Assembly (NCBI GenBank): GCA_028877005.1
Contig: JAGWPI010000161.1
Location: 1 to 14,206, forward strand
Source: Bacteroidota bacterium
GTDB lineage: Bacteria; Bacteroidota; Bacteroidia; Chitinophagales; Chitinophagaceae
Reading direction: 5' to 3'
DNA length: 14,206 bases
Program-made: the position numbers and the translations under genes
The notes under the pieces: model-generated
Databases searched by the model: none
The model's input: the letters and a program-made list of their open reading frames with translations, nothing else
Told to the model about the DNA's origin: nothing
In this document: one piece after another, positions 507 to 13,449 of the stretch
Layout of the letters: every line of letters starts with the position of its first letter
How positions within the stretch are numbered: the stretch's first letter is position 1

Positions 507-1772
507 TTATAAAATGGTATGATCGCCCATTACTTCACTTAGTGCCAATCCCCAATGCGGTATTTTACCACCTAATGTATAGTACATTTGTTTAAAGCCC
601 ATTTTTAAAGCATAAGGCGTTACGCCCATTTCTAAATGGGTTTCTTTACCACCCCACCATTCATTGGTGCGCATATAAAAACCTTTAATGCCACCCATAT
701 CGCCCATACACAATAGCTCAAATTCCATTGGTTTAATAGGCCCTTTTATTAATTTTAATTCTTGGGCAAGTGTGTTGGCCAGTACTTCTGCTTCCATATG
801 TCCGAGAGAGCCAATTTTAGGAACTGTAATAGAAGCGGCATCACCCACAGCAAAAATGTTGGGATAATCTGGATTGCGCATATATAAATCTGTAATCACA
901 AAGCCCATATCGTCTGTAAAGGGTAACTCTTTTAAAAACTGGTGGGCTTGCCAGTCGGGGAACAAGATGGTTACTTCTGCTTCTTGTGAACTGCCATCTA
1001 TAAATTCAACGCCATCTTTATGCACTTTTTTAATGCCTTGTGTATTGGCTTGGTAGTGATAACCCATTTTATCCATCATGGGTAATAGTTGGTGCAGAAT
1101 GGTTTCACCTGCATCTTCTGCAATTACTTTAGCAGGGGTAGACAAATAAACGGTACCGGCATTGCCTTTTTTATTTTTCTCAAGCCAATGCGCCATAGAG
1201 AAAGCCAATTCAACAGGAGGGCCTTCACAAGCGGTTTGTGCTACGGGTAAATTGGGTGGAAGTTTTTCGCTTTTACCCTGGTGAAATATGGCCGAAGTAA
1301 TAGCAATAGGTCCGCCTTTGTATTCCTGATGTAAATAATTTCTTAATCTATTACCCAGGAAAGTATCTGTAACGCTATGGCCATAAGCTTCAAACCCTTC
1401 TATATGGTCATAAGCTAGGCGATTACCTAATGCAACCACCAAATAGTCGTACTGTATTTTCCTTATTGGATGCCCCGCCCTTTCGTTGGGTTGGTAATAA
1501 ACAGTATTGGTATCCGGATCAATAGTGGTTACCTCTGCTTGTATAAATGCACTACCGTCATGCTCTAAAAAAGAGATGAATCTGTATTGTAAATCAATAG
1601 CCGGATTAATATTGGCCAATACCTGAATAGGAATATTGGGTACAAATGTGAGCAATGATTTGCGATCGATGATAGTTATTTTTGCGGAGTCTTTTACTGC
1701 AGCATGAATATATCTTGCTGTAGTAAGGCCTGCAAAGTTGCAGCCTAGTATAATGATGTGCGGTTTCGACAT
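507..1772 (-). CDS. Sulfide:quinone oxidoreductase-like FAD flavoprotein
   Basis: A 421-residue two-dinucleotide-fold flavoprotein. The N-terminal FAD motif is LGCNFAGLTTA (residues 9-19), a variant with Asn at the central Gly. The second FAD motif NIFAVGDAAS is at 305-314. Two cysteines sit where sulfide:quinone oxidoreductases keep their redox pair: Cys182 in ACEGPPVE and Cys355 in LLCMGDMGG. The third cysteine of type I enzymes, which binds FAD covalently, has no counterpart; the only other Cys is Cys11 in the Rossmann loop. The C-terminal 30 residues are hydrophobic and amphipathic, as expected for peripheral membrane attachment at the quinone pool. Family members oxidise sulfide to polysulfide or persulfide and reduce quinone. 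The DsrE-like gene nearby suits sulfur or persulfide handling. A related NDH-2-like or flavocytochrome-type oxidoreductase remains possible. A 104-bp gap separates it from the upstream coiled-coil gene, and no convincing promoter was found there. Confidence 0.8.
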   Translation of the reverse strand: MSKPHIIILGCNFAGLTTARYIHAAVKDSAKITIIDRKSLLTFVPNIPIQVLANINPAIDLQYRFISFLEHDGSAFIQAEVTTIDPDTNTVYYQPNERAGHPIRKIQYDYLVVALGNRLAYDHIEGFEAYGHSVTDTFLGNRLRNYLHQEYKGGPIAITSAIFHQGKSEKLPPNLPVAQTACEGPPVELAFSMAHWLEKNKKGNAGTVYLSTPAKVIAEDAGETILHQLLPMMDKMGYHYQANTQGIKKVHKDGVEFIDGSSQEAEVTILFPDWQAHQFLKELPFTDDMGFVITDLYMRNPDYPNIFAVGDAASITVPKIGSLGHMEAEVLANTLAQELKLIKGPIKPMEFELLCMGDMGGIKGFYMRTNEWWGGKETHLEMGVTPYALKMGFKQMYYTLGGKIPHWGLALSEVMGDHTIL

Positions 1773-1876: not shown

Positions 1877-2260
1877 TTACATCCACTTTGCAGCAAAGTT
1901 TCTAAATTCTGCACGCAACTCATTAAAGGTTTTTTCAAAAGTATCTATCTTATCTTTCACTTCTTTATGAGTGGGCATATTTCTATGGTCTGCTGTAACC
2001 GGGTTTTTTTCTATTTCTTTTTCAATCTCATTTTCATGTAATTTTATACTATGCAAAATTTCATCTATATTATTTTTTTGAACAATTAACTGATTTTGAA
2101 AATGTTCAACCAGACTTAGAACTTCTTGATGGCTATTTTTAGAAGCTATTTCTTCCAAACGATTCTGTAATATGGTAATTTCGTCAGTATAGAATTTCAT
2201 TTTTGTTAACCATTCTGTATGGTCAGCATGTTGTGCATACATGTTTTCTCCTGTTTTCAT
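1877..2260 (-). CDS. Small coiled-coil protein of unknown function
   Basis: I do not recognise a named family. The protein is about 127 residues, acidic and basic by turns, almost wholly helical in character, with long heptad-like runs (for example KFYTDEITILQNRLEEIAS and VEHFQNQLIVQKNNIDEILHSI), no cysteine, no signal peptide and no membrane segment. The open frame extends upstream to an ATG at 2299, but that start would lie inside the preceding ferritin-like gene. I chose the ATG at 2260 (MKTGENMYAQ). A further ATG at 2242 is preceded by AGGAGA about four bases upstream and could be the real start. The gene is the third of a unit with peroxiredoxin and the ferritin-like protein, so a stress-related or scaffold role is possible, but this is context only. 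Confidence 0.75.
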   Translation of the reverse strand: MKTGENMYAQHADHTEWLTKMKFYTDEITILQNRLEEIASKNSHQEVLSLVEHFQNQLIVQKNNIDEILHSIKLHENEIEKEIEKNPVTADHRNMPTHKEVKDKIDTFEKTFNELRAEFRNFAAKWM

Positions 2261-2279: not shown

Positions 2280-2690
2280 TTAATTGTTTTTATTGGCACA
2301 CCGTTGAAAAGCCGGTAAGTGTCTTTCTTGCGAAGCTGTTCTCAATGCGTGGTAAACATTAAGTATATCTTGTTTAGTAGTGCTTTTAAGTAATGTATTG
2401 TAAAGAGCTACATTCTCCAATTCTCCTACAACTGCTGCTGCACAAGCATTCTTTACTGAGGTAAATTTTGGTGTAAGCCCAATCCATTTATTGGCTGTTG
2501 GGGTTACATTGTATTGTTGAAACAAGTTTAGTAAGGCTTCAATATGACGGGTCTCTGCCTCGCGAATGTTGATGAAAGGCCTTACTTCTCCAAAATTCTT
2601 TATTACCCAATCATAGGTTGTCCATGATTTATATTCATCATCTAGTGCTTGTTGTAAGCCAATCAGTTCTGCTTCATCCAAGTGTATCAT
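2280..2690 (-). CDS. DUF2202-type ferritin-like protein
   Basis: A 136-residue all-helical protein with the pattern of the DUF2202 ferritin-like family: LDDEYKSWTTYDWVIKNFG, then FINIREAETRHIEALL, then GELENVALYNTLL, then ASQERHLPAFQRC. Candidate di-metal ligands are Glu19 in helix 1, Glu46 and His49 (ExxH) in helix 2, Glu90 or Glu92 in helix 3, and Glu122 with His124 in helix 4. Ferritin-like four-helix bundles usually hold a di-iron or di-manganese centre. The precise reaction of DUF2202 proteins is not established to my knowledge. It lies 6 bp after the peroxiredoxin gene, so the two are almost certainly co-transcribed, which suggests iron or peroxide handling in the cytoplasm. The length is close to that of the single domain, with no signal peptide. 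Confidence 0.85.
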   Translation of the reverse strand: MIHLDEAELIGLQQALDDEYKSWTTYDWVIKNFGEVRPFINIREAETRHIEALLNLFQQYNVTPTANKWIGLTPKFTSVKNACAAAVVGELENVALYNTLLKSTTKQDILNVYHALRTASQERHLPAFQRCANKNN

Positions 2691-2696
2691 ACTTAT

Positions 2697-3395
2697 TTAT
2701 TTAGTAATTACTTTTTCAATTGGTAAAGGTTTGGTACAGAAAAACCAATCATAACAGGTGAATTCTTCTTTATTTTCCATCCTTTCTTTTGCTACACCGC
2801 ACGAACCTGCTGTAGGTACAATTACATCATCACCGGGTTGCCAATCTGCAGGCGTAGCAATGTTGTAAGTATCAGCAGTTTGCAAGGCAATTAATGCTCT
2901 TTTTAATTCATCAAAATTGCGACCCATAGAAAGCGGATAATAAATAATGGCGCGAATCATGCCATTAGGATCAATAAAAAAAACGGCTCTTACTGCTTTG
3001 GTAGAACTTTCGCCGGGCTGAATCATACCATATTTTTTAGCAACTTCCATGGTAATGTCTTCAATTAAGGGAAATTTTACTTCTATGTTTTTCATCCCCT
3101 TAAACTCAATTTTTTCGTTAATGGTTCTAAGCCAAGCAATGTGGCTATATAATCCATCAACCGATAAGCCCACTAATTGACAATTTAATGCGTTAAACTC
3201 TGACTCTCGGGCAGCAAATGTTATAAACTCTGAGGTGCATACGGGTGTAAAATCAGCCGGATGGCTGAAAAAGATTACCCATTTTCCTTTATAATCAGCA
3301 GGAAAATTTATATTGCCTTGGGTGGTAACTGCTGTAAATGCAGGGGCTTTATCGCCAATTCTTGGCATTGTTACAATTGTTTCAGTTGTTTCCAT
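2697..3395 (-). CDS. Peroxiredoxin, Prx6 (1-Cys) type
   Basis: A 232-residue thiol peroxidase. The active-site motif PADFTPVCTSE at residues 46-56 supplies the peroxidatic Cys53 with the conserved Pro46 and Thr50. The long C-terminal extension after residue 165 (DTYNIATPADWQPGDDVIVP at 175-194) marks the Prx6/AhpC-TSA subfamily. The extension carries three more cysteines, Cys199, Cys214 and Cys220, in the region where archaeal Prx6 homologues keep resolving cysteines, so it may work as an atypical 2-Cys enzyme. It reduces hydrogen peroxide and organic hydroperoxides, and family members may also act on persulfides. It is first in a unit with the ferritin-like and coiled-coil genes. A CRP-type dyad with a -7-like box lies directly upstream. 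An internal ATG at codon 10 would also give a full domain, but the longer start fits the leader. Confidence 0.95.
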   Translation of the reverse strand: METTETIVTMPRIGDKAPAFTAVTTQGNINFPADYKGKWVIFFSHPADFTPVCTSEFITFAARESEFNALNCQLVGLSVDGLYSHIAWLRTINEKIEFKGMKNIEVKFPLIEDITMEVAKKYGMIQPGESSTKAVRAVFFIDPNGMIRAIIYYPLSMGRNFDELKRALIALQTADTYNIATPADWQPGDDVIVPTAGSCGVAKERMENKEEFTCYDWFFCTKPLPIEKVITK

Positions 3396-3438: not shown

Positions 3439-3446
3439 GAAAGGTA
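3439..3446 (-). promoter_or_regulatory. Putative -7 promoter element of the peroxiredoxin unit
   Basis: On the minus strand this reads TACCTTTC, five of the six defined positions of the Bacteroidota element TAnnTTTG. It begins 29.5 bp downstream of the centre of the dyad at 3467-3484 and leaves a leader of roughly 40 bases before the ATG at 3395. There is no clear TTTG -33 box, as expected if an activator substitutes for it. A single short match in AT-rich DNA is weak; its spacing, repeated at two other units, is the main support. Confidence 0.4.
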
Positions 3447-3466
3447 GAAAATTAAATACTTTTTTT

Positions 3467-3484
3467 ATGTAACATAAGTTACAT
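3467..3484. promoter_or_regulatory. CRP/FNR-type operator upstream of peroxiredoxin
   Basis: A perfect inverted repeat with 7-bp arms, ATGTAAC and GTTACAT, around ATAA. In CRP format it reads TGTAA-N6-TTACA. It overlaps the stop codon of the FmdE-like gene and lies 71 bp before the peroxiredoxin ATG. It is unlikely to be a terminator for the FmdE-like gene, because on the minus strand an A run, not a T run, follows it. An activator site for the peroxiredoxin unit is the best reading. Confidence 0.55.
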
Positions 3485-4084
3485 TTGTTGGCAATGAGGT
3501 AATGCTTTGTTGATAATATCTGTTTTAATGTATTGGTTATTTAAAATTGGATGCCATTCTAAAGGCGCTATTTCATCAATAATAAATAAATCTGGTGCAT
3601 GGGTGGAGAGTAAAAAATCGGTAAAATCATCTTCCATTTTTTTTAGGGCGTCTAAATCGCATGGATGAAGCTGTTTAGCAACGGCTTTATTTCCCATTTC
3701 ATCAATAATAGCAGGCTTTATACCGGGTTTTAATTTTATGCCATAGGTTACACCATTATCTATATGTTGAACTAAATAACTGTACGAAATATTGTCATCT
3801 ACATAAAAAGTATTGAATTGATATCTGCCTCCCGTTAAATAAATAGCTACATCTGTTAAGCAGGGCGAAGATTTACTAACAATACGGGTATTGGTTCTGT
3901 CAATAGGTTGGTTAGGATATAATTGTAACAAGGCTAAACGTAAGCCCAAAAAGCCTACCACTAAACCATCGCACAAGTGGCCATGAAATTTAGCAGTATC
4001 TTCTAAAGAGATAGTTTGCACATGGTTTAATCTTCCTTTTGAAAAATCAGTATCAATGGTTTGAATGGTAGGTATTTGTTTCAT
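3479..4084 (-). CDS. FmdE-like protein (formylmethanofuran dehydrogenase subunit E domain)
   Basis: A 201-residue protein whose N-terminal half carries the FmdE signature FHGHLCDGLVVGFLG (residues 33-47, His34, His36, Cys38; the usual motif has Pro where Asp39 stands) and a second conserved segment SKSSPCLTDVAIYLTGGR (70-87, Cys75). Two more cysteines are at 142 and 198. The C-terminal zinc-ribbon of archaeal FmdE is absent. There is no other sign of methanofuran chemistry, so this is a stand-alone FmdE-domain protein of the kind seen in many non-methanogens, probably a metal- or thiol-dependent cytosolic protein of unknown reaction. It starts 11 bp after the DsrE-like gene, so the two are very likely one unit, which hints at sulfur-linked chemistry. 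The last codons overlap the palindrome that regulates the next unit. Confidence 0.8.
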   Translation of the reverse strand: MKQIPTIQTIDTDFSKGRLNHVQTISLEDTAKFHGHLCDGLVVGFLGLRLALLQLYPNQPIDRTNTRIVSKSSPCLTDVAIYLTGGRYQFNTFYVDDNISYSYLVQHIDNGVTYGIKLKPGIKPAIIDEMGNKAVAKQLHPCDLDALKKMEDDFTDFLLSTHAPDLFIIDEIAPLEWHPILNNQYIKTDIINKALPHCQQM

Positions 4085-4095
4085 TGTTTTGTATT

Positions 4096-4452
4096 TTAAA
4101 AAGTAATTACTGCAGCGTTTTCAGCACCAAAGCGTAAAAATGCATCACGGGCATATTCTAAGTGAACCCCTTTGGCTGTTAAAGCAGCGGTTGTGCCTTT
4201 AGCTTCAGCGGTATTTTTACAAGCACTTACTTTTATACCTGCGTTAATTAATTCATCAATTGCTTTAATGTAATCTGCTTTTACTCCGGTTTCAGCATTG
4301 CTTGAATAGGCTGCTTGGCCAGGTCCAAATAAATAGACTTCCAATTCTACTCCTGCTTCTTTGTTTACTTGTGACATTCTAACTGATACATGTGAGCCTG
4401 CATTTAATGCGGCATCATTGTCGTTGAAAATTATTACGGCTGTTTTTTTCAT
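4096..4452 (-). CDS. DsrE/DsrF-like sulfur-relay family protein
   Basis: A 118-residue single-domain protein with the DsrE-like alpha/beta layout: strand KKTAVIIFN at the start, then VELEVYLFGPGQAAY (35-49), then AGIKVSACKNTAEAKG (71-86) and a C-terminal strand NAAVITF. Cys78 in VSACKNTAE is the usual position of the reactive cysteine that carries persulfide in DsrE/TusD-type proteins; it is the only cysteine in the protein. No signal peptide, so it is cytosolic. Such single-Cys proteins in non-sulfur oxidisers are mostly uncharacterised; transfer or sensing of persulfide sulfur is inferred. It leads a two-gene unit with the FmdE-like gene and follows the RND pump after a 61-bp gap in which I found no clear promoter. 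Confidence 0.82.
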   Translation of the reverse strand: MKKTAVIIFNDNDAALNAGSHVSVRMSQVNKEAGVELEVYLFGPGQAAYSSNAETGVKADYIKAIDELINAGIKVSACKNTAEAKGTTAALTAKGVHLEYARDAFLRFGAENAAVITF

Positions 4453-4513
4453 GATTGTTTTGTTTTAAATGATGAATATGTTTTGATGTATTTGTGTTGG
4501 TTAATAAAATGTT

Positions 4514-7500
4514 TTATGATGGGTTATGTAAAGCAGAAGGGGCTGTTTTTGTATCATTCTTATCCACCATATAAGCATACATGGGTACAAATATGAGTGT
4601 TAACAAAGTGCCTATTAATAAGCCACCAATAGCAACATCGGCTAATGGACTTAAGCGTTCCAATCCCACAGCTTGTTCTAATGCAATGGGAATCATACCT
4701 GCTATTGTACCAAAAGCGGTCATCATAACAGGGCGAAATCTTACTCGAACGCTTTCAATTGCGCTATCAAAAGGGCTTTCACCACTAGCTCTATGCTTTT
4801 GATAAAAATCGATTAATAAAATAGAATTTTTAATAATGATACCGAAAAGTAATAGTATGCCCAATAAGCTAGGCATACAACTAGGTTTATGAAATAATAG
4901 CATACCCCAAGCAGCACCAATCATAGAAAGGGGTAATACCATAATCATAATCAGCGCCATTTTAATGGAACGATAAATAGCAATTAATACTACTGTTAAA
5001 AGAAATACACCTAAGCCAATGGCTTTCAACATTCTGTTAAAGCTATCATTGATTTGTGCAATATCTCCTTGCTCTGTAATAACCACATCACTCTTGTCTT
5101 TTATATTTTTCAATGCTGCTTCTGCATCATCGGTAATATGGGTAACAGGCCTTTTGGTTCTATAACCATTAACATCAATACTGTACATCATATTATCACG
5201 TTCAATTTTAGCATACGTGAAATCTTTAGTAAATGAAGCTAATTGGGCCAGGGGTACATCACCAAAATTGGTATGAATGGGTAAAAGACTTAAGCTTTGT
5301 TCGTTTTCGTTGAATTTTCCTTTAAAGTAAAGTGTAATAGGTTGTGTGTTGAGAGATTGAAGGTTGGCATTTAAACTAATTACTTGTCCTTTAATTAAAA
5401 TTTGTTGAATAATTTCAGCTGGTGTTATATTATAGCTAAGGGCTTTGTTGTCATCAATTTTCAAAACAATTTCACTAAAGTCTTTATTCCAACTGGTTGA
5501 AATAGATGTTAATCCTTTTACATTTTTTAATGCATCTTTTACTTGGTCTGACTTTTCTGCCAGTCCATCAACTATAGGCGATTGTAAACGCACATCTAAT
5601 GTAGCTTTTATGGTAGAGAGAGCTGTAGCACCAAAATCAAATACATCATCTCTTTTAATGCCGTCTAAAGTGCTTAGTTTTTTTCGGATGGTATCTTCAA
5701 TTTGCCAAATATCTAATTTTCGATGAAATCTATCTACACAATTAATGGTAATAGTAGCTTCAGAAGGCAAATTGCCGCTTCCTAAACTTAAAACACCTAC
5801 TTCGTTACCAAAAGCAACAGAACTTTTATCTATCCAAGGTTGTTGATGTAACCATTGCAAAAAAGGTTCTATTTTGGTTTCTGAACTATTCACTGTTTCG
5901 TTGGGGCTAAAACTAATTTGTGCTTTAATTATGCCTGTATCCATGGGTGGCATTGCATCTTTACCAATAAGTGGCAAAATGTTTTTTACACTAATTACTA
6001 ATAAAAGCAGTACTCCAACTGTAAGAAAAATTCTGCGTAGTACTTTTCTTTTACCATTTGAAAACTTAATAACATTTACATACGGTTCTACTAAACGACC
6101 AATAGAACGTTCATATATATGCTCGAACCATAATTCAAATTTTGTTTTTTTAGTGCCTTTTTTAAGGAATACCTCTAATAATTGCGGAATGAAAGTGATA
6201 GAAAGGAAAAACGACATTAGTAATGCAATAATGAGGGTAAAGATGAGTGGTTTAAATATTTTTTCAGGAAATCCGCCAATGAACATAAGTGGTAAAACAA
6301 TAACAATGGTAGAAATAGTACCAGACCAAATAGGTGCAATTACTTCTTTTGTACCTTTTTGTACAGCAGTTTTTAAATCTTCGTTTAGTTCGTTAATATG
6401 TCGTTCAATATTTTCTAGCACTACAATAGCATCATCGGCCAGCATACCCAATGCTAAAATAATAGCTGTATAAATTACAATATTTAAACTGCCGCCGGTA
6501 AGCCATATAACCGCCATAGTAGAAAAGAAAACCATGGGTATTGTAATGGCTGCTGCAGCAATTGCTTTTAAATTTCCCAAGAAAAATAAAATAACCAGCA
6601 GGGTATAAAAAATAGCATCGCGTAAAGCTATTAGCATGTTATCGTTGGCTAGTTCAATTAAATTTCTCTGAGTATCAGTAATTTCAAATTTTAAGTTAGG
6701 ATATTTAGCTTCCATTTTTTTCATCTCATCACGAGCTGCATTACTTACGCTTAAAACGCTGCCGCCAGGTGCTCTTTGAATGGCTAATGCAATAGCCGGC
6801 TTGGCATTACCGATATAACCACTGGTTCTTTTTTTATAACCCCATTCAACAGAAGCAATATCACTAAGTTTAATATTGTTGGTAATGTTGAGTTGTTTAA
6901 TTTTTTCTATTTCATCTTTTTCGGCATAAAAAGTTAAGGTATAAAAATTATTTTTCCCTTTAATAATGCCTACCGGCATGTCATGATCAACCGTTTGTAT
7001 TACTTTGGCAATTTTATCAAAATCAATATTATATTGTTTTGCTTTAAAGGGGTCTACTTCTACATTTACAGAACTTTCATAGCCACCAAATACTTCCACA
7101 TTTCCAATGCTGTGATTGCTCAGTAAAGCAGGTTTTATAAATCCATCTACCATCTTTCTAATATCACTTAGAGAAATATCGTTGTTTTTTGGGGATATGG
7201 CAATAACATCAACAGGTAATGTAAAATCGCCTGTAGTATATACTGCGGGATTTACATCGGTTGGCAAATTTCCTTTGGCAATAGAAATAGCATTGGCAAC
7301 ATCTACTGCTGCTGCATCTAACCCTTTTTTATAATCAAATTCAGCTTTTACTATAGAGAAGTTAGCTACATTAACGGAGCTTACATCTGTCAGTAAACTT
7401 AATCGAGCAATTTCTTGTTCAATAGGTTTAGAAACAGTGTTTGCAGCAATTTGCGCTGTAGCACCCGGTACTTTGGTAATGACTAAAACTTGTGGTGGGG

Positions 7501-7615
7501 TTGAATCGGGGAATAGATTTTTTGGTAATGTTATTAGCGCAATTATTCCTACAACAAAAAATCCAAATATAATTGCATAAAGCAGATAGGGCCTTTTATA
7601 AAAATAGTCGAACAT
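4514..7615 (-). CDS. RND-family efflux pump, inner-membrane subunit
   Basis: A full-length 1033-residue RND transporter. It begins with a membrane helix and the typical LPKNLFPDSTPPQV segment (30-43), then a large periplasmic domain, helices 2-6 at about 335-485, a second periplasmic domain at about 550-860 and the last helices at about 862-1018. The proton-relay residues of drug-type pumps are present: Asp394 and Asp395 in LADDAIVVLEN, and Lys929 in GIIIKNSILLIDF. Heavy-metal (CzcA-type) pumps usually have a Gly in place of the second Asp, so the sequence leans to the HAE/drug group, although the neighbouring genes suggest metals. The pump takes substrate from the periplasm or outer leaflet and passes it to the TolC-like channel using the proton gradient. 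It lies 6 bp after the adaptor gene. Confidence 0.95.
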   Translation of the reverse strand: MFDYFYKRPYLLYAIIFGFFVVGIIALITLPKNLFPDSTPPQVLVITKVPGATAQIAANTVSKPIEQEIARLSLLTDVSSVNVANFSIVKAEFDYKKGLDAAAVDVANAISIAKGNLPTDVNPAVYTTGDFTLPVDVIAISPKNNDISLSDIRKMVDGFIKPALLSNHSIGNVEVFGGYESSVNVEVDPFKAKQYNIDFDKIAKVIQTVDHDMPVGIIKGKNNFYTLTFYAEKDEIEKIKQLNITNNIKLSDIASVEWGYKKRTSGYIGNAKPAIALAIQRAPGGSVLSVSNAARDEMKKMEAKYPNLKFEITDTQRNLIELANDNMLIALRDAIFYTLLVILFFLGNLKAIAAAAITIPMVFFSTMAVIWLTGGSLNIVIYTAIILALGMLADDAIVVLENIERHINELNEDLKTAVQKGTKEVIAPIWSGTISTIVIVLPLMFIGGFPEKIFKPLIFTLIIALLMSFFLSITFIPQLLEVFLKKGTKKTKFELWFEHIYERSIGRLVEPYVNVIKFSNGKRKVLRRIFLTVGVLLLLVISVKNILPLIGKDAMPPMDTGIIKAQISFSPNETVNSSETKIEPFLQWLHQQPWIDKSSVAFGNEVGVLSLGSGNLPSEATITINCVDRFHRKLDIWQIEDTIRKKLSTLDGIKRDDVFDFGATALSTIKATLDVRLQSPIVDGLAEKSDQVKDALKNVKGLTSISTSWNKDFSEIVLKIDDNKALSYNITPAEIIQQILIKGQVISLNANLQSLNTQPITLYFKGKFNENEQSLSLLPIHTNFGDVPLAQLASFTKDFTYAKIERDNMMYSIDVNGYRTKRPVTHITDDAEAALKNIKDKSDVVITEQGDIAQINDSFNRMLKAIGLGVFLLTVVLIAIYRSIKMALIMIMVLPLSMIGAAWGMLLFHKPSCMPSLLGILLLFGIIIKNSILLIDFYQKHRASGESPFDSAIESVRVRFRPVMMTAFGTIAGMIPIALEQAVGLERLSPLADVAIGGLLIGTLLTLIFVPMYAYMVDKNDTKTAPSALHNPS

Positions 7616-7621
7616 GGCTGA

Positions 7622-8677
7622 TTATTTTTTTATTTGAATTGGGGTACCGGAAAGGAGACTTAATAAAACATCTTGTTTTTCTACAATTACATTTTTGCCT
7701 ATTAGCTCGGGATTGTTTATTATAATTCCATTTTCTCCTGTTTGTAAAATTTGAACTTCAATAGGTGTAGCTTTATCATTGTTGGCAACAAATACATAGC
7801 TTTTTCCATTTCTGTTTAATACAGCATCAAATGGGAGTAGAATAGATTTTCCGTTAAATACAACTACATCAATGGGTACACGTTCGCCACTTAGTAAATT
7901 TAAATGATCAATATTTATTCTATACTCAGCTAAACTATTGATGGTACTGTTAAGTGGTTTTACAGAATAAAAGAGATTATTTTTTATAACACCCTTCACC
8001 ACCAGTTGAGCGGGCAAACTAACTTTTAAGTAAGCGCCTTTGGTGGTGCTGATAAAAGCCAAAGGTTGTCCGGACATTGCTATATCACCTACATTGGCGG
8101 TAGTTTTAGAAATAACACCAGAAACAGGCGCAGTAATAGTGGTATAAGTTAAAGTATTATTTAAATCGTTTTTGTTTTGTTGAAGTGATGCTATTTTAGA
8201 CTCAGTTTCGGTAATTTTTGATATTTCATTTTCTGATTGTTCTTTTGATGCTCCTTTTACTGCCATCAATTCTATTGTTCTTTTATGCATGGCATTTAGG
8301 TTATCGAGCGATGTTTGTAATGCTTTTATTTGTGCATTGATGCTTTCAATATTTGATGTAATTGCTGTGTTATCTAATCGGGCAATTACTTCACCGGCAT
8401 TAACACTAGTACCTGTTGGTAGTATTTGTAAGATACGTGCCGGAATTTTGGTAGATATTATAACATCTTGGTCATTTTGTACCTGCGCTATATAAGGTAA
8501 TGTAAGTGTGTTTTGATTGTATTGTAGTGTGGTAGTTGAAACCGTAATTGGAAAACGCTGTGCAACAGGTGCATCTGCATCGCGTTGCTTGGCTTTTTTA
8601 ATTGCAATTATTCCACCTGCAATAATAATTACCACTATAATTGCGCTAATACTGTAGTTGATTATTTGTTTTTTCAT
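7622..8677 (-). CDS. RND efflux periplasmic adaptor (membrane fusion protein)
   Basis: A 351-residue HlyD/AcrA-type adaptor. A single hydrophobic helix at residues 7-27 without a lipobox anchors it in the inner membrane. Two lipoyl half-motifs, VIISTKIPARILQILPTG (72-89) and TYTTITAPVSGVISKTTANV (177-196), flank a coiled-coil hairpin at about 105-172. Beta-barrel and membrane-proximal domains follow. It bridges the inner-membrane pump and the outer-membrane channel. The start is fixed by an ATGA overlap with the stop of the upstream TolC-like gene, which indicates translational coupling; the pump gene follows after 6 bp. No His- or Cys-rich metal-binding segment is present in the tail, so the substrate remains open. 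Confidence 0.94.
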   Translation of the reverse strand: MKKQIINYSISAIIVVIIIAGGIIAIKKAKQRDADAPVAQRFPITVSTTTLQYNQNTLTLPYIAQVQNDQDVIISTKIPARILQILPTGTSVNAGEVIARLDNTAITSNIESINAQIKALQTSLDNLNAMHKRTIELMAVKGASKEQSENEISKITETESKIASLQQNKNDLNNTLTYTTITAPVSGVISKTTANVGDIAMSGQPLAFISTTKGAYLKVSLPAQLVVKGVIKNNLFYSVKPLNSTINSLAEYRINIDHLNLLSGERVPIDVVVFNGKSILLPFDAVLNRNGKSYVFVANNDKATPIEVQILQTGENGIIINNPELIGKNVIVEKQDVLLSLLSGTPIQIKK

Positions 8678-9978
8678 TTTACAATAGTTTGAATGTCATT
8701 GCCATAAATAACAGCTAGTTTCATTAGGGTTTGCCAAATTTGTGCCTGGGTTTTGTACAGTTTTGTTTTTTCAAATACAACATCATCTTCGTATTTTAAG
8801 TAATCTTCAATAGTCATTTGGTCTATTGAGAAACTAACTTTGGCAGTTTGTAATAGGGTTTCTTTTTCTTTTATTGAATTTTGGTATAATTGAACAGCGT
8901 GTTGTAATAGTTGTAAAGTGTTTAATAGTTGTTGGGCTTGTGTTTGAAGGCTTTGTGTAGCTATACTTAGTTCGTTGTTGGTGCTTTCAACATTTATTTT
9001 AGATTGATTAATTTTTGCCCATTGACTTTTGTTAAATAGTGGAAATTTCAATAATAATCCCATAGTGGTGTAACTAGTATTAATGCTTTTGTTATTGTTA
9101 TAAGCATTGGCAAAATTGTTGGTATAATTGCCTAGTAAATAAAGTGACGGTAATAATTTATCTTTTTCTGATTGTAATGATAATTGCGCTGCTGTTACTT
9201 TTTTTTGAAGGGGTAATAGCGATTTTATTTCACCTTCTTTAATATTATCAATCTGTTGCATGGGTATAGCTTCTGTAATTGAAACACCTGTTAAGTTGGC
9301 AATGGTTGCTGTTATTTCTTCCTTTTGAATATGTAAATCATTTTTTAAAATATCTAATTCATTAATGGCATTATTAATATTGGTTAGTACTGTTTCGGGG
9401 GCTCTACCATTGTTTACTTTTACTACAATTACGGATTTTGTAATGAGTAATGAATTGCGCTTACTACTCAATGCACTATCTAATTGTTGCAGGTAAATTA
9501 AATTGGCGTTACTGCTTACAATAATAGCTTCATTCTTAATTAAGTTAAGATACTGTTGGTCAACTGCTGCTTCAATACCTATTTTTGCTTGTGATGATAG
9601 GGTATAAATTGATTTTACAAATATGGGCATGGCAATGGCTGCACCTAATCGATAAATATTTTTACTAAAAGGCTGAGGTATAGATTGATTTTGTACCATA
9701 GGTAATAATTCATTAGGTGGTAATGGGTACATGCTGGTTGGAATGGATGCATAATCATATTTTCCTATGGCATCTATATCGGGATAGAATTGGCTGTTGA
9801 TGATTTTTTTTGCAGCTTTAGCTTGTTCAATTTTTAAAACATCGCTTTTGGAAATTGGCTGTTGTTTTAACTGTGTAAAAAGATATTGCAGGTTATTATT
9901 TGTTTGTGTTTTTGCAAAGAATGGAAGCAGCAGTATACACAAACACCAACCTAATATTAGTAGGGTATTTTTTTTCAT
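8674..9978 (-). CDS. TolC-family outer membrane efflux channel
   Basis: A 434-residue outer-membrane factor. It opens with a signal peptide (MKKN, hydrophobic core LLILGWCLCILLLPFF, likely cleavage near residues 22-25, before QTNN). The mature protein is long and helical with two similar halves; Leu/Gln/Asn-rich helical segments at about 150-255 and 340-430 alternate with beta stretches such as AIAMPIFVKSIYTLSSQ and GLLLKFPLFNKSQW, which is the TolC duplication pattern. It forms the trimeric tunnel through the outer membrane. It is the first gene of the efflux operon, overlapping the adaptor gene by four bases. The 164-bp region upstream contains a CRP/FNR-like dyad, a -7-like box and a perfect inverted repeat, all listed separately. 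Confidence 0.92.
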   Translation of the reverse strand: MKKNTLLILGWCLCILLLPFFAKTQTNNNLQYLFTQLKQQPISKSDVLKIEQAKAAKKIINSQFYPDIDAIGKYDYASIPTSMYPLPPNELLPMVQNQSIPQPFSKNIYRLGAAIAMPIFVKSIYTLSSQAKIGIEAAVDQQYLNLIKNEAIIVSSNANLIYLQQLDSALSSKRNSLLITKSVIVVKVNNGRAPETVLTNINNAINELDILKNDLHIQKEEITATIANLTGVSITEAIPMQQIDNIKEGEIKSLLPLQKKVTAAQLSLQSEKDKLLPSLYLLGNYTNNFANAYNNNKSINTSYTTMGLLLKFPLFNKSQWAKINQSKINVESTNNELSIATQSLQTQAQQLLNTLQLLQHAVQLYQNSIKEKETLLQTAKVSFSIDQMTIEDYLKYEDDVVFEKTKLYKTQAQIWQTLMKLAVIYGNDIQTIVK

Positions 9979-10055
9979 TTTTATTTTATTTATCCATAAA
10001 ACAATATTATAGGTATATATATGAAAGTGCTAAGTAAATGGTATCAGCAAGCATG

Positions 10056-10088
10056 TATTTATATTAATAATATTGTATAATATAAATA
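10056..10088. repeat. Perfect 11-bp inverted repeat in the efflux operon leader
   Basis: The arms TATTTATATTA (10056-10066) and TAATATAAATA (10078-10088) are exact reverse complements around an 11-base spacer. The whole structure is A/T in its stem. It lies just downstream of the predicted -7 box, so it would fall at the very 5' end of the transcript. It could be an operator for a dimeric repressor or an mRNA 5' stem. It is a poor intrinsic terminator, as the stem has no G/C pairs and no U tract follows. Confidence 0.5.
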
Positions 10089-10092
10089 TTAG

Positions 10093-10100
10093 CTAAGTTA
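10093..10100 (-). promoter_or_regulatory. Putative -7 promoter element of the efflux operon
   Basis: On the minus strand this reads TAACTTAG, five of six defined positions of TAnnTTTG. It starts 29.5 bp after the centre of the dyad at 10122-10137, the same distance as at the peroxiredoxin unit. It would give a leader of about 110 bases. The match alone is weak in such AT-rich DNA. Confidence 0.35.
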
Positions 10101-10121
10101 ATTATGGTATTTTAAAAAATC

Positions 10122-10137
10122 TATGATAAATATCATG
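10122..10137. promoter_or_regulatory. CRP/FNR-type dyad upstream of the efflux operon
   Basis: The core at 10123-10136 is ATGATA-AA-TATCAT, a perfect inverted repeat that fits the FNR-like form TGAT-N4-ATCA. On the minus strand its core TGATATTTATCA differs from the plus-strand core of the arsR site, TGATATTTGTCA, at one base. It lies 144 bp upstream of the TolC-like start and six bases after the DinB-like stop codon. A T run follows it on the minus strand after three bases, so a very weak terminator for the upstream operon is an alternative reading. Confidence 0.5.
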
Positions 10138-10142
10138 TGTTA

Positions 10143-10595
10143 CTAAGAAGCATACTTTAAAATTAAACCTAACTGTCCTGCATGATAAGCCGTGTGTGAT
10201 ATAATTCTGCCTAAAGCTGCTGCTTTTGTTTTAGTACCAAATTCTTTGGTAGTAATTAATTCCTGCCAAACATAATCCGGTTGTTGTTCAATGATGAATT
10301 TTAATTGGTCAAAAGCCAAATGTTGGTAATTTAAAATAGGCTCTAGTTGTGTCCATTCTCCGGTATCATGTTGGGCAATAATAGTTTTGGCATGTACTTG
10401 TATATTTTTAGCACCAAACACATTTTTTGCAAATAGTAGCTCCACATCTGCAATATGCCTAATTAAGAAGCCTGCACTATTTTGTGTACCGATTAATTTT
10501 TTGGTAAGGGCTTCCTCTTTTAAGTTGTTGAGTAAATTGGTAAACCTAGTGCGGGCTTCCAACCAGGTGGCAAGGTATGCTTCGGTAGTTGTCAT
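10143..10595 (-). CDS. DinB-family four-helix protein
   Basis: A 150-residue protein of the DinB/YfiT-like metalloenzyme fold. The three His ligands of the fold can be placed: His47 in FLIRHIADVE (helix 2), and His134 and His138 in IISHTAYHAGQLG (helix 4), the usual HxxxH. Members bind a divalent metal, and some transfer low-molecular-weight thiols such as bacillithiol or mycothiol to electrophiles; most are uncharacterised. It is the last gene of the ArsR-led unit, starting 10 bp after the permease stop, so it is probably co-transcribed with metalloid-resistance genes. That context makes thiol-linked detoxification an attractive but unproven role. There are no cysteines and no signal peptide, so it acts in the cytoplasm. 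Confidence 0.85.
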   Translation of the reverse strand: MTTTEAYLATWLEARTRFTNLLNNLKEEALTKKLIGTQNSAGFLIRHIADVELLFAKNVFGAKNIQVHAKTIIAQHDTGEWTQLEPILNYQHLAFDQLKFIIEQQPDYVWQELITTKEFGTKTKAAALGRIISHTAYHAGQLGLILKYAS

Positions 10596-10605
10596 TTGTA
10601 TAAGT

Positions 10606-11580
10606 TTATAAGATGATATTAAATAGATAGCCGGATAGTATCATGAAAAATGTAATAGTGCCAAAGTAAATGGCAATTAATTTCCAGTTCATTACTTTTT
10701 TAAGTAACATAGCTTCCGGGAGGGATAAGCCAATAACACCCATCATAAATGCTATAGCAGTTCCTAGTGGTACACCCTTTGCTACTAACACTTGAATAAC
10801 CGGTATTACCCCTGCGGCATTACTATACATAGGCACACCCATTATTACTGCTAGGGGTACAGCATACCATTGTCCCTTGTTAATGTAATGCTCAAAAAAT
10901 CCGGTTGGTAAAAATCCATGCATGGCACCTCCAATAGCAATACCCACAATTATATAAATAGAAACATTCTTAACAATATTAAAAGCCTCTTTTAAAATAT
11001 TCGGCATTCTTTTGCTTAATGAAAGATGTTCTGTTTCCAAGAATTCTTCTGTGTGTGCATTTACTATAATATTTTGAACCCAAGGTGTTAAATGTTTTTC
11101 TAATTTTAATTTACCCAAAGTAAAGCCGCCAATAATCCCCAATACAATACCGGTTAAAACGTATAATGCCGTTACTTTAAAACCAAAGGCTCCGGCAAAT
11201 ATGGCAATAGCAACTTCATTTACCAACGGGGCGGTAATTAGGTAGGTGAACGTAATACCCAATGGAATGCCACCTTTTACAAATCCAATAAAAAGCGGCA
11301 CCGATGAGCAGGAACAAAATGGGGTTATAACGCCAAAGGAAGAGGCAAAAATATATTCAAAGCCATACAATTTATTTCTGCTTAAATAATTACGTAACTT
11401 ATCAACCGGGAAATATGCATTTACAATACCCATAACCGTGGTAATAGCAAACAGTAGTATAAAAATTTTAAGGGTATCAAAAACAAAAAAATTGAGTGCT
11501 TCTCCTAAATGGCTTTGAGCTGAAACGCCCAAAGCCTGGTAAATTAGCCAATCTGCAAAGTATTGTAACCAATCAAACAT
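10606..11580 (-). CDS. ArsP/SO_0444-family permease (PF03773 type)
   Basis: A 324-residue membrane protein with about eight hydrophobic helices. The family hallmarks are present: ITPFCSCSSVPLFIGF (residues 85-100, with Cys89 and Cys91), ITAPLVNEVAIA (115-126), GVPMYSNAAGVIPVI (248-262) and GLSLPEAMLL (284-293). A cytosolic loop rich in charged residues lies at about 155-195. Characterised relatives export trivalent organoarsenicals (ArsP) or are linked to copper and zinc efflux (SO_0444 type); the conserved CSCS cysteines are thought to bind the soft metal or metalloid. Here the partners (ArsR, miniature thioredoxin, rhodanese with Cys pairs) favour a thiophilic substrate such as As(III), organoarsenical or Sb(III). 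It starts 19 bp after the rhodanese gene and ends 10 bp before the DinB-like gene. Confidence 0.9.
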   Translation of the reverse strand: MFDWLQYFADWLIYQALGVSAQSHLGEALNFFVFDTLKIFILLFAITTVMGIVNAYFPVDKLRNYLSRNKLYGFEYIFASSFGVITPFCSCSSVPLFIGFVKGGIPLGITFTYLITAPLVNEVAIAIFAGAFGFKVTALYVLTGIVLGIIGGFTLGKLKLEKHLTPWVQNIIVNAHTEEFLETEHLSLSKRMPNILKEAFNIVKNVSIYIIVGIAIGGAMHGFLPTGFFEHYINKGQWYAVPLAVIMGVPMYSNAAGVIPVIQVLVAKGVPLGTAIAFMMGVIGLSLPEAMLLKKVMNWKLIAIYFGTITFFMILSGYLFNIIL

Positions 11581-11599
11581 AAATTATTATTTTATTATT

Positions 11600-12052
11600 T
11601 TAACAACATGTACTACCTGAATTGTCGGTTGAATCGCAACATGAGCCGGTGTTTTGTGTGTTGGTGGAAGAAGAATCGCAACATCCGCTTGTTGTATTGC
11701 CAAGTACTGATGCCACATTTCCGCGTACCGGGAATCCCTTTTGTGCCCAGCGCACAATACCGTGTTGCATGTTCACCACCAAAGAAGGGTCATAACCATG
11801 GTTTAGTAAAAAGCCTGCTGCACGTAAACTACGTCCACCGCCGTTACATACCATCACTAATTTTTTTTGTTTAGGTAATTCTTGATAACGATTTTCGAAT
11901 TCACTTAAAGGAATATAGATGATATTAGGAACATCATAAGCCAAAGTATTTATTTCCTCTTTTTCTCTTACATCCACTAATATGGCACCATCTTTTACCC
12001 ATTGTTGTGTAGTAGTTGGGCAAATTTCTTTTACTGTTTCTTGTGTTTTCAT
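11600..12052 (-). CDS. Rhodanese-like sulfurtransferase with three-pair cysteine tail
   Basis: A 150-residue protein. Residues 1-112 are a single rhodanese domain: DGAILVDVREKEE (21-33), then the active-site loop VCNGGGRSLRAAGFL (68-82) with catalytic Cys69 and Arg74, then GIVRWAQKGFPV near the end of the domain. The remaining roughly 38 residues form a Ser/Thr/Asn/Gly-rich, probably disordered tail with three vicinal cysteine pairs, Cys124-125, Cys138-139 and Cys149-150, the last two residues of the protein. Such pairs are typical soft-metal or As(III) ligands. Rhodaneses carry persulfide sulfur on the active Cys. The gene sits between a miniature thioredoxin and the permease, with gaps of 11 and 19 bp. 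The domain has no signal peptide. A sulfur-donor role, a metalloid chaperone role, or both, are inferred. Confidence 0.9.
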   Translation of the reverse strand: MKTQETVKEICPTTTQQWVKDGAILVDVREKEEINTLAYDVPNIIYIPLSEFENRYQELPKQKKLVMVCNGGGRSLRAAGFLLNHGYDPSLVVNMQHGIVRWAQKGFPVRGNVASVLGNTTSGCCDSSSTNTQNTGSCCDSTDNSGSTCC

Positions 12053-12063
12053 ATTATATTATT

Positions 12064-12303
12064 TTATTGGGTTAACAATTGTTTAATTTCATTTATTTCT
12101 GCAATACGTCCTTTGATAACTGCTTTATCGTTAATCATTAAAACCGGTGTAGTTAATACATTGTACTGCATCATTTCTTCTATGTCTTCAATTTTTTTTA
12201 CATCAGCGTCAATGCCGGTTTGTTTTAGGGCTTCTATTACATTGTTATAGGTTGTTTTGCATTTGGGGCAACCGGGTCCTAGAACTTTAATACTTGTTTT
12301 CAT
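12064..12303 (-). CDS. Miniature thioredoxin (redox-active disulfide protein 2 family)
   Basis: A 79-residue protein with a minimal thioredoxin fold: strand IKVLGPG, active site CPKC (Cys12, Cys15), a helix, DADVKKIED, then TTPVLMIND with the cis-Pro at residue 53 and VIKGRI. It matches the thioredoxin_3 / TM0996-MTH895 family, which is often encoded beside ArsR regulators and PF03773 permeases. It is probably a cytosolic dithiol reductase, or a dithiol metal donor to the permease, in metalloid handling; the exact partner is unknown. The length is normal for the family. It lies 12 bp after the acetolactate-decarboxylase-like gene and 11 bp before the rhodanese. Confidence 0.92.
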   Translation of the reverse strand: MKTSIKVLGPGCPKCKTTYNNVIEALKQTGIDADVKKIEDIEEMMQYNVLTTPVLMINDKAVIKGRIAEINEIKQLLTQ

Positions 12304-12315
12304 GATTGATTTAAT

Positions 12316-13044
12316 TTATGGTTTATTAATGTGTGGAATTAATAATTGAATAGGTGCTGTTTCATCAAAAACAACTTCATCTAAATGACCTGCCTGATAT
12401 TTATTACCCAGGCGGTAATGAACATGTATATAGCTTTTTATGTGTGTAAATATGTTTTGATGATGTTGTGAATAAAAGCCCAATAGCTGGGCATATTGTT
12501 CATGAATTATTTGAGGATAGTTGGCATTTTTCATATCAGCCATGTTGGTGGTAGTAGGTTCGGCATACATAATATGCCCTTTTCCAGATTTCATTTTACC
12601 AAAAATTAAAAACGGGAATGCTTCTGAGGTATCTATTCCGTTTAATGCTGCCTGATATGCCACCGCCGCTTGTAATGCTTGCAACGATGAAATGGGATTA
12701 ATTATATTAACGGTATCCCACTTAGGTATATTAGCATAAACTAAAAAAATGGCTTTTAAAGGATGAACGTTTTTTTTGAGATATGGCTCTTTATTTTCAT
12801 TAACTGCTGCCACAAGCGGCATACCATCCCAAACAATAATTTCTCCTTGCATAAATTCGGCAGGGCCTAAAGCATACAAATTTTTTTGAATTAAGGTATC
12901 AACCATAATAGCAGCTGTAAGGCCGTTTGCTTTTTGCATTTCTTGCATACTACCTTTATACTGCACGGGGTTAGTTTGCGCATACATGGCAGGCATTAAT
13001 CCCAGCCCTAAGAGTAAACAGATTATTTTTTTCATTTTATTCAT
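12316..13044 (-). CDS. Exported acetolactate decarboxylase-like protein
   Basis: A 242-residue protein with a signal peptide (MNKMKKIICLLLGLGLMP, likely cleavage after AMYA at residue 22). The body follows the alpha-acetolactate decarboxylase fold: FMQGEIIVWDGMPLVA (64-79, Glu68), LLGFYSQHHQ (187-196), and the zinc-site pattern YIHVHYRLG plus AGHLDEVVF giving His207, His209 and His220. In a by-eye comparison with Bacillus-type enzymes, the catalytic Arg appears to be replaced (KSGKGHIM region, around His157) and the late Glu is missing near the end (APIQLLIP). So the metal site is kept but decarboxylase activity is doubtful. It is the second gene of the ArsR unit, 31 bp after arsR and 12 bp before the thioredoxin, an unexpected place for acetoin metabolism. 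A periplasmic metal-binding or altered enzymatic role is possible. Confidence 0.75.
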   Translation of the reverse strand: MNKMKKIICLLLGLGLMPAMYAQTNPVQYKGSMQEMQKANGLTAAIMVDTLIQKNLYALGPAEFMQGEIIVWDGMPLVAAVNENKEPYLKKNVHPLKAIFLVYANIPKWDTVNIINPISSLQALQAAVAYQAALNGIDTSEAFPFLIFGKMKSGKGHIMYAEPTTTNMADMKNANYPQIIHEQYAQLLGFYSQHHQNIFTHIKSYIHVHYRLGNKYQAGHLDEVVFDETAPIQLLIPHINKP

Positions 13045-13075
13045 CGTTTTTTTGCGATTGATAAGGGTAAAAAAA

Positions 13076-13381
13076 TTATTGAAAAAATTCGTTGAAATAC
13101 TTTTTTGCTTCAGCCCAAGCAGCTTGATTGATACAATATTTAATGCGTGGCGGCATTACATCTCCTTGTATGAGGCCTGCCTCTTTCAATTCTTTTAAAT
13201 GTTGCGAAATAGTTGATTGCGCCATTGGAATTTCTTCAGTAAAATCGCCGGTGAAGCAACAAGATTGACGGTCTAAGAATTGTAATATTCTAATACGAAT
13301 AGGGTGCGACAAAGCTTTTGCATAACGTGCAATTTTTTCTTCTTGTAATGAATAATCAATAATGGTAGTGGTTCGTTGCAT
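13076..13381 (-). CDS. ArsR/SmtB-family transcriptional repressor
   Basis: A 101-residue winged-helix repressor. The core KALSHPIRIRILQFL (22-36) and the recognition region MAQSTISQHLKELKEAGLI (53-71) are typical of ArsR proteins, followed by the wing (VMPPRIKYCINQ, 75-86). Candidate sensor cysteines are the vicinal pair Cys41-Cys42 in RQSCCFTGDF, near the position of the CVC motif of type I ArsR, and Cys83 in the wing. Three thiols would suit As(III) or Sb(III), but their geometry is inferred. ArsR proteins leave DNA when metal binds and so release their own operon. It is the first gene of a six-gene unit, and a near-perfect palindrome at 13397-13418 in its own promoter is the likely operator. 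Confidence 0.93.
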   Translation of the reverse strand: MQRTTTIIDYSLQEEKIARYAKALSHPIRIRILQFLDRQSCCFTGDFTEEIPMAQSTISQHLKELKEAGLIQGDVMPPRIKYCINQAAWAEAKKYFNEFFQ

Positions 13382-13396
13382 ATGCTGTTCTAATAG

Positions 13397-13418
13397 TTCA
13401 TCGCAAATTTACGATGAA
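13397..13418. promoter_or_regulatory. Candidate ArsR operator
   Basis: The arms TTCATCG (13397-13403) and CGATGAA (13412-13418) are exact inverted repeats. The eight bases between them are also nearly symmetrical, so 10 of 11 base pairs of the 22-bp site match. It ends 15 bp before the arsR ATG and contains the -7 promoter box, so bound repressor would block RNA polymerase. Dyads of this kind are usual for ArsR-family autoregulation. No binding data are available. Confidence 0.65.
13404..13411 (-). promoter_or_regulatory. -7 promoter element of the arsR operon
   Basis: On the minus strand this is TAAATTTG, a full match to the Bacteroidota -7 consensus TAnnTTTG, 22 bases before the arsR ATG. 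It lies in the centre of the candidate ArsR operator. No TTTG -33 box stands at the usual 19-21 bp upstream, which fits a promoter that depends on the activator site at 13434-13449. Confidence 0.6.
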
Positions 13419-13433
13419 GCAAGTAAAAGTTAA

Positions 13434-13449
13434 TGTGATATTTGTCACA
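13434..13449. promoter_or_regulatory. Consensus CRP-type operator upstream of arsR
   Basis: The site is TGTGA-TATTTG-TCACA, an exact match to the classical CRP consensus TGTGA-N6-TCACA. Its centre lies 30.5 bp upstream of the -7 box, which would put it at about -41 relative to transcription start, the class II activator position. It is in the 121-bp gap between the MMPL-type gene and arsR. Which CRP/FNR protein of this organism binds it is unknown. Confidence 0.6.

Follow-up and report, generated by a model that had tools for sequence, protein, structure and literature searches.

The window analysed here is contig C79 in its full length of 14,206 bases, which belongs to the draft genome of a member of the Chitinophagaceae (2.6 Mb in 396 contigs, 82% complete). 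All window genes named in the analysis lie on the minus strand. Three gene units, headed by a peroxiredoxin, an outer membrane efflux protein of an RND system and an ArsR-family regulator, are preceded by the dyads S1, S2 and S3, respectively, and each dyad is followed by a box similar to TAnnTTTG, the -7 element of Bacteroidota. An earlier note on this DNA had described these pairs, and re-reading the sequence returned the same letters, coordinates and distances (Table 1). The boxes of S1 and S2 are indeed imperfect, with one mismatch each to TAnnTTTG, and that of S3 has none. The remark that the cores of S2 and S3 differ by a single base is misleading, as it compares the coding strand of S2 with the opposite strand of S3; read on the coding strand, they are TGATATTTATCA and TGACAAATATCA.

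With moderate confidence, we interpret these elements as class II promoters of two CRP/FNR activators, namely the protein encoded on contig C251 for S1 and S3 and, more likely, a protein of the C230 type for S2.

Table 1. Features of the window, with the distance of each box from the centre of its dyad
Feature	Sequence	Position	Strand	Remark
S1 dyad	ATGTAACATAAGTTACAT	3467..3484	-	TGTRAY-N4-RTYACA class (ATGTAAC-N4-GTTACAT); overlaps stop codon of FmdE-like gene
S1 -7-like box	TACCTTTC	3439..3446	-	29.5 bp
S2 dyad	ATGATAAATATCAT	10123..10136	-	Palindrome of ATGAT-N4-ATCAT class; 10122-10137 in the earlier note
S2 -7-like box	TAACTTAG	10093..10100	-	29.5 bp
S3 dyad	TGTGATATTTGTCACA	13434..13449	-	TGTGA-N6-TCACA
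S3 -7-like box	TAAATTTG	13404..13411	-	30.5 bp
ArsR-type operator palindrome	ATCGCAAATTTACGAT	13400..13415	.	Covers S3 box
Peroxiredoxin		2697..3395	-	First gene of S1 unit
DUF2202 protein		2280..2690	-	S1 unit
Protein without Pfam hit		1877..2257	-	S1 unit
SQR-like flavoprotein		507..1772	-	S1 unit; below NCBIfam SQR cut-off
Outer membrane efflux protein (OEP)		8674..9978	-	First gene of S2 unit
Membrane fusion-like protein		7622..8677	-	S2 unit; named by eye
RND transporter		4514..7615	-	S2 unit
ArsR-family regulator		13076..13381	-	First gene of S3 unit
Protein without NCBIfam hit		12316..13044	-	S3 unit
Thioredoxin-like protein (MTH895/ArsE family)		12064..12303	-	S3 unit
Rhodanese-like protein		11600..12052	-	S3 unit
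ArsP_1 permease		10606..11580	-	S3 unit
DinB-like protein		10143..10595	-	End of S3 gene run

The distance between dyad and box recurs throughout the family. We scanned 147 genomes for TGTGAY-N4-RTYACA followed by TAnnTTTG, allowing all 31 gaps from 6 to 36, and obtained 23 matches in 21 genomes and 18 of the 100 genera, compared with 5 for the reversed control. 20 of the 23 occur at gaps 20-23 (three at 20, twelve at 21, four at 22 and one at 23), and single matches occur at 18, 32 and 34; gap 21 corresponds to 29.5 bp from dyad centre to box. When 396 genomes of the order were searched with a stricter dyad, 21 of them contained 24 matches in total, gaps 20-23 accounted for 19 of these, and the control yielded 2; the two genome sets overlap, and four matches are common to both scans. 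For ATGAT-N4-ATCAT with TAnnTTTG, the matches listed number 114 in 69 of the 147 genomes and 57 of the 100 genera (reversed pattern: 26 by a hand tally); exactly 29.5 bp is found in 42 of the 114, and 63 lie within one base of this value. To our knowledge, activator-dependent promoters have been little mapped in Bacteroidota. In E. coli, the class II position of CRP is -41.5. With the first base of the box at -12, a dyad centre 29.5 bp upstream would fall near -41.5, the class II arrangement. This numbering follows the TAnnTTTG box of Flavobacterium psychrophilum, placed at -12 to -5 in the accessible part of PMC9723704. Of the earlier proposal, the part on dyads of the CRP/FNR type at a class II distance from the -7 box is supported, and hence one activator superfamily and one promoter layout. 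Such a spacing rule would allow regulons to be read from sequence in this family.

Chance pairing was assessed with 1500 windows drawn from an order-2 Markov model. Tight dyad-box pairs had a mean of 0.0053 per window, with at least one in 0.5% of the windows and at least two in none, compared with three observed; with the looser dyads of the earlier note, at least two pairs arose in 1 of the 1500. Because the tight patterns were picked after the sites had been seen, scanning the genome and the family provides a fairer assessment. In the own genome, tight TGTRAY-N4-RTYACA is in excess (11 sites, S1 and S3 among them, versus 3 in the control), and ATGAT-N4-ATCAT shows a weak excess (13 versus 8). 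The loose dyad TGTNA-N6-TNACA was discarded as a genome-wide signal, since its 64 sites in the own genome show no excess over the 77 of the reversed control.

The two dyad classes accompany different regulator genes. Four proteins with a cNMP-binding domain are encoded in the draft. At E <= 1e-20, 110 of the 147 family genomes have a homolog of the C251 protein, and for the best 30 of these loci we sought the best dyad from -20 to +200 bp around the gene end, ignoring the box. It was better than shuffles in 27 of the 30 (p <= 0.035 each, 200 shuffles). The pattern nAnnTTTG follows at 29.5 in 19 loci and at 30.5 in 3, with two extra occurrences at 42.5 and none at any other distance from 12.5 to 47.5. 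A TGTRAY dyad with up to one mismatch and a box is present in 21 of the 30 loci; exact WTGAT dyads are found in three, none with a box. The C230 protein has homologs (E <= 1e-20) in 53 of the 147 genomes. Here, 18 of 30 loci contain exact WTGAT-N4-ATCAW dyads, six of these with a box at 28.5-31.5, and with one mismatch allowed a WTGAT dyad with box is likewise present in 18 of the 30; exact TGTRAY dyads are absent from all 30 loci, and one locus has such a dyad with up to one mismatch and a box. For comparison, 28 arsR loci hold no exact dyad of either class and, with one mismatch, one TGTRAY and two WTGAT dyads beside a box. The C230 regulator gene itself (L026, on own contig C230) is divergent from a gene for a cytochrome c-like lipoprotein and is flanked by ATGATTTTCGTCAT (box TACATTTA at 30.5) and ATGATTATAATCAT (box TTACTTTG at 29.5).

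A matrix built from the sites beside C251-type genes, with a Markov model as background, separates the three sites in the same way. S1 scores 17.4, S3 20.8 and S2 6.5, where leave-one-out members range from 13.7 to 20.2, and the value of S2 rules out a single motif for S1-S3. A match to TGTTAATCCTTTTACA at 5507 within the RND gene scores -3.0 and was treated as chance. Six other tight matches in the own genome, scoring 10.5-15.4, were put aside: those on C87, C190 and C277 lie within long open reading frames, and a clear promoter context is missing for those on C88, C351 and C389. In the 1.29 Mb of peroxiredoxin loci described below, 17 matches reach at least 17.4, far above the Markov rate; this surplus may reflect true sites or an over-simple Markov model. 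A background taken from own-genome DNA would be biased, since those loci were fetched for motif matches.

What lies downstream of the sites indicates the biological role of each class; most downstream genes of scan matches were named by eye from the protein starts. C251-locus sites are followed by rhodanese-, thioredoxin-, TauE/SafE-, MBL- and DUF983-like genes, with MBL-rhodanese among the relatives. In the own genome, the site AGTAACATTAGTCACA with box CAACTTTG at 29.5 is located between the C251 gene and a rhodanese-like gene. Further TGTRAY-type sites precede cydA (box TAACTTTG at 28.5), an SQR-like gene (box TTATTTTG at 28.5 or TATTTTGA at 29.5, both poor) and a gene similar to CoA-disulfide reductase (box GCACTTTG at 29.5, poor). 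On contig C185 (L152), cydAB- and TauE-like genes are clustered with two SQR-like genes and an MBL-rhodanese gene. Sulfide and sulfane sulfur, and not peroxide or metalloid, are what unites the S1/S3 class. For the ATGAT class, we read the targets by eye downstream of 20 chosen gap-22 sites. They include HemN-like (same genus, L264), FeoA-like (L265), cytochrome c- and NosZ-like (L268, L274), NosD-like (a cluster, L272), molybdoenzyme-like (L270), Dps-like (L263) and TolC-like (L266) genes; several of the 20 have no obvious functional link downstream, and for one no gene was found. As side observations, the spacer between cydA and SQR on C185 holds both an ATGAT dyad (7029) and a TGTRAY dyad (6985), and in the window DsrE-like and FmdE-like genes (3479-4452) sit between the RND gene and the peroxiredoxin.

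Under the interpretation with two activators, the CRP/FNR protein of C251 would bind S1 and S3 and activate genes for the handling of sulfide and sulfane sulfur. Its dimer would occupy TGTGAC-N4-GTCACA-like dyads near -41.5, beside an RNA polymerase bound to the AnnTTTG box at about -12 to -5. S2 would more likely be bound by the second regulator, of the C230 type; anaerobic and denitrification genes are often found downstream of the ATGAT-N4-ATCAT sites of this regulator.

The C251 protein itself suggests a signal. Among 30 proteins of this type, Cys75 is present in 30 and Cys81 in 29, and no other alignment column has three or more cysteines. In a protein search, both are present in 120 of 120 homologs among the matches listed, with no other column reaching 10; the names of these homologs are general, mostly Crp/Fnr family. 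An AlphaFold model (mean pLDDT 85.6, pTM 0.60) places Cys75 just before a helix at 76-83 and Cys81 within it. In a profile alignment, the cysteine stretch falls on the CRP segment GDFIGELGLFEEGQERSA, the phosphate-binding (cyclic-nucleotide) cassette. SREVISR of C251 aligns with SRETVGR of CRP and has the R-E-x-x-x-R residues of a recognition helix of the TGTGA type. The protein reaches 50.9 bits and stays below the NCBIfam cut-off of 266 for CRP. Because of the neighbouring sulfur genes, a thiol switch of the persulfide type is a natural guess, and persulfide or polysulfide probably acts on Cys75 and Cys81. We tentatively go one step further: this CRP/FNR subfamily, widespread in the family, may have turned the cyclic-nucleotide cassette into a two-cysteine switch for sulfane sulfur and become a class II activator devoted to sulfide detoxification and to respiration that tolerates sulfide, which in one genus was wired onto an ArsR promoter. 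In the literature searched, mostly outside subscription papers and in part only as extracts, we found no description of a sulfur-responsive CRP/FNR activator in Bacteroidota. The analysis points to one protein as a candidate sulfide-responsive activator, and owing to the cysteine pair its proposed sensing could be tested on a small set of promoters.

At S3, a second element has to be considered. Copies of a palindrome similar to ATCGTAATATTGCGAT (up to three mismatches) occur in 27 of 30 arsR loci, and the palindrome at 13400-13415 is likely the ArsR operator of the family. G061, the one other genome of the genus where this arsR was found, retains the S3 dyad and the box 30.5 bp away, and an upstream dyad with at most one mismatch is absent from the other 28 arsR loci. 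Since the dyad is confined to the loci of the genus and the palindrome is found in 27 of 30, S3 has the appearance of an activator site that came on top of an ArsR-type promoter within this genus. That the S3 dyad, situated as it is in an arsR promoter, simply represents the ArsR operator is scarcely credible, as a separate palindrome is present in 27 of the 30 loci and the dyad in 2. Because ArsR could cover the S3 -7 box, this promoter would be under double control by the C251 activator and ArsR; if so, the gate needs the repressor off and the activator on. Counted by eye, 14 of the 28 arsR loci outside the genus and neither of the two inside have a TTTG 22-25 bp ahead of the box; these are too few loci to claim that the S3 dyad replaced a -33 TTTG.

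The earlier note had favoured a single CRP/FNR activator controlling all three units as one stress regulon that joins peroxide, efflux and metalloid genes. The equal spacing at the three sites and their TGAT-like cores fit this idea, yet S2 scores only 6.5 on the matrix of S1 and S3, and the two dyad classes accompany different regulator genes and different target genes; the ATGAT class goes with another regulator, and we consider the single regulon very unlikely. Assigning S1 and S3 to the C251 protein also has to face several observations that weigh against it. Other CRP/FNR subfamilies adjoin TGTGAY sites too (L138, L150, L146, L151), and as the draft is 82% complete, the regulator may therefore be another one, either among the other three found or encoded in the missing part of the genome. 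This appears rather unlikely, given such sites in 27 of 30 C251-type loci and one directly after the own C251 gene. The four loci named are further regulator-site pairs with the same layout: their CRP/FNR genes are less like any of the four own ones and stand beside dyads of the type TGTGAC-GATC-GTCACA or TGTGAT-AATN-ATCACA, followed by SnoaL-, DUF983- or other genes, and DUF983-like zinc-ribbon genes recur beside CRP/FNR genes and sites in L146, L151 and L183-L185. Further points on the same side are the poor boxes at the own sqr and CoA-disulfide reductase sites, and the scores of C87 (14.4) and C277 (15.4), which lie within long open reading frames and reach the range of the members; moreover, binding, activation, start sites and signal are predictions from sequence. 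As for conservation, S3 is kept in G061, and S1 equivalents are few. We searched 80 peroxiredoxin loci from named records and counted as S1 equivalents dyads within 210 bp of the start that have at most one mismatch; two mismatches were accepted where a box stands at 29.5. Only seven loci qualify (L030, L031, L033, L034, L042, L055, L076); L081 (dyad at 205.5, no box) and L091 and L038 (more than 280 bp, box at 31.5) were left out. All seven keep the A of the box in register, with a distance of 30.5 in L042, and TTTG is complete only in L034, L042 and L055. Among five orthologs of the family with at least 75% identity, only L238 has an S1 equivalent; in a further six that are more distant, the dyads of L242 and L243 are good and lack a box in register. 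The peroxiredoxin is found in records of many phyla and may move between genomes without an S1-type promoter. Finally, S1 alone of the three sites matches the consensus GTAACnnnnGTTAC, given for HcpR2 in the accessible part of PMC1274295, so that S1, or all TGTAAC-type sites, could belong to a nitrosative-stress regulator of the HcpR type. Against this clearly unlikely assignment stand the S1 equivalents in relatives and the sites beside C251-type genes, which have GTGAC or mixed half-sites.

S2 is the weakest of the three sites, and we lean only slightly towards regarding it as real. Its perfect ATGAT-N4-ATCAT at the exact family distance argues for a true site. That it is a chance palindrome in AT-rich DNA is nevertheless a serious possibility: the spacer has 18% G+C, the box carries its mismatch, the excess of such dyads in the own genome is the weak one given above, and a box at 29.5 accompanies only 2 of these 13, S2 being one of them. 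In the other three genomes of the genus, a search at E <= 1e-30 found no gene for the outer membrane protein. RND genes near the peroxiredoxin in the 80 loci reach only 22-28% identity, in five loci, and tblastn found no match between the outer membrane protein of the window and the TolC-like protein that follows the ATGAT site of L266. With respect to the N-terminal cysteine cluster of a [4Fe-4S] FNR, the predicted C230 protein starts with MIDIDLLLSFGATYKK and is devoid of N-terminal cysteines; these are present in C84, a different protein.

The proposed promoters resemble the class II promoters of E. coli CRP and FNR, where the centre of a two-fold dyad likewise precedes the first base of the -10/-7 element by 29.5 bp; the element is TATAAT there and TAnnTTTG here, where the start sites are predicted. 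Persulfide sensors are known from other families: SqrR and BigR belong to the ArsR family and CstR to the CsoR family. They share with C251 a conserved cysteine pair and targets of the sqr, rhodanese and dioxygenase type. However, they are repressors, whereas C251 is a proposed activator with putative persulfide chemistry and, by sequence and Foldseek, a CRP/FNR protein without the ArsR or CsoR fold; it therefore at most works like a dithiol persulfide sensor. A cysteine-persulfidated protein of the CRP type does exist in Acinetobacter baumannii, where, according to the accessible part of PMC7315123, a Crp-like protein is persulfidated under sulfide; that protein is a general Crp close to E. 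coli Crp, whereas C251 represents a subfamily that has a cysteine pair of its own and is encoded next to sulfur genes. As far as PMC1274295 is accessible, the sites of HcpR (wTGTGA-N6-TCACAw) resemble S3 and those of HcpR2 resemble S1, whereas the neighbouring genes are sulfur-related here. The same source gives TTGAT-N4-ATCAA for sites of the FNR/DNR type, which have the TGAT-N4-ATCA core of the ATGAT class, and hemN-, feoA- and nosZ-like targets were read by eye here; the outer bases are A..T here and T..A there, and many of the 20 sites have no obvious target link. The best match of C251, both by sequence and by Foldseek, is PDB 3dv8, an uncharacterised Crp/Fnr protein of Eubacterium rectale, which at 25% identity in the Foldseek match has cysteines at both positions of the pair.

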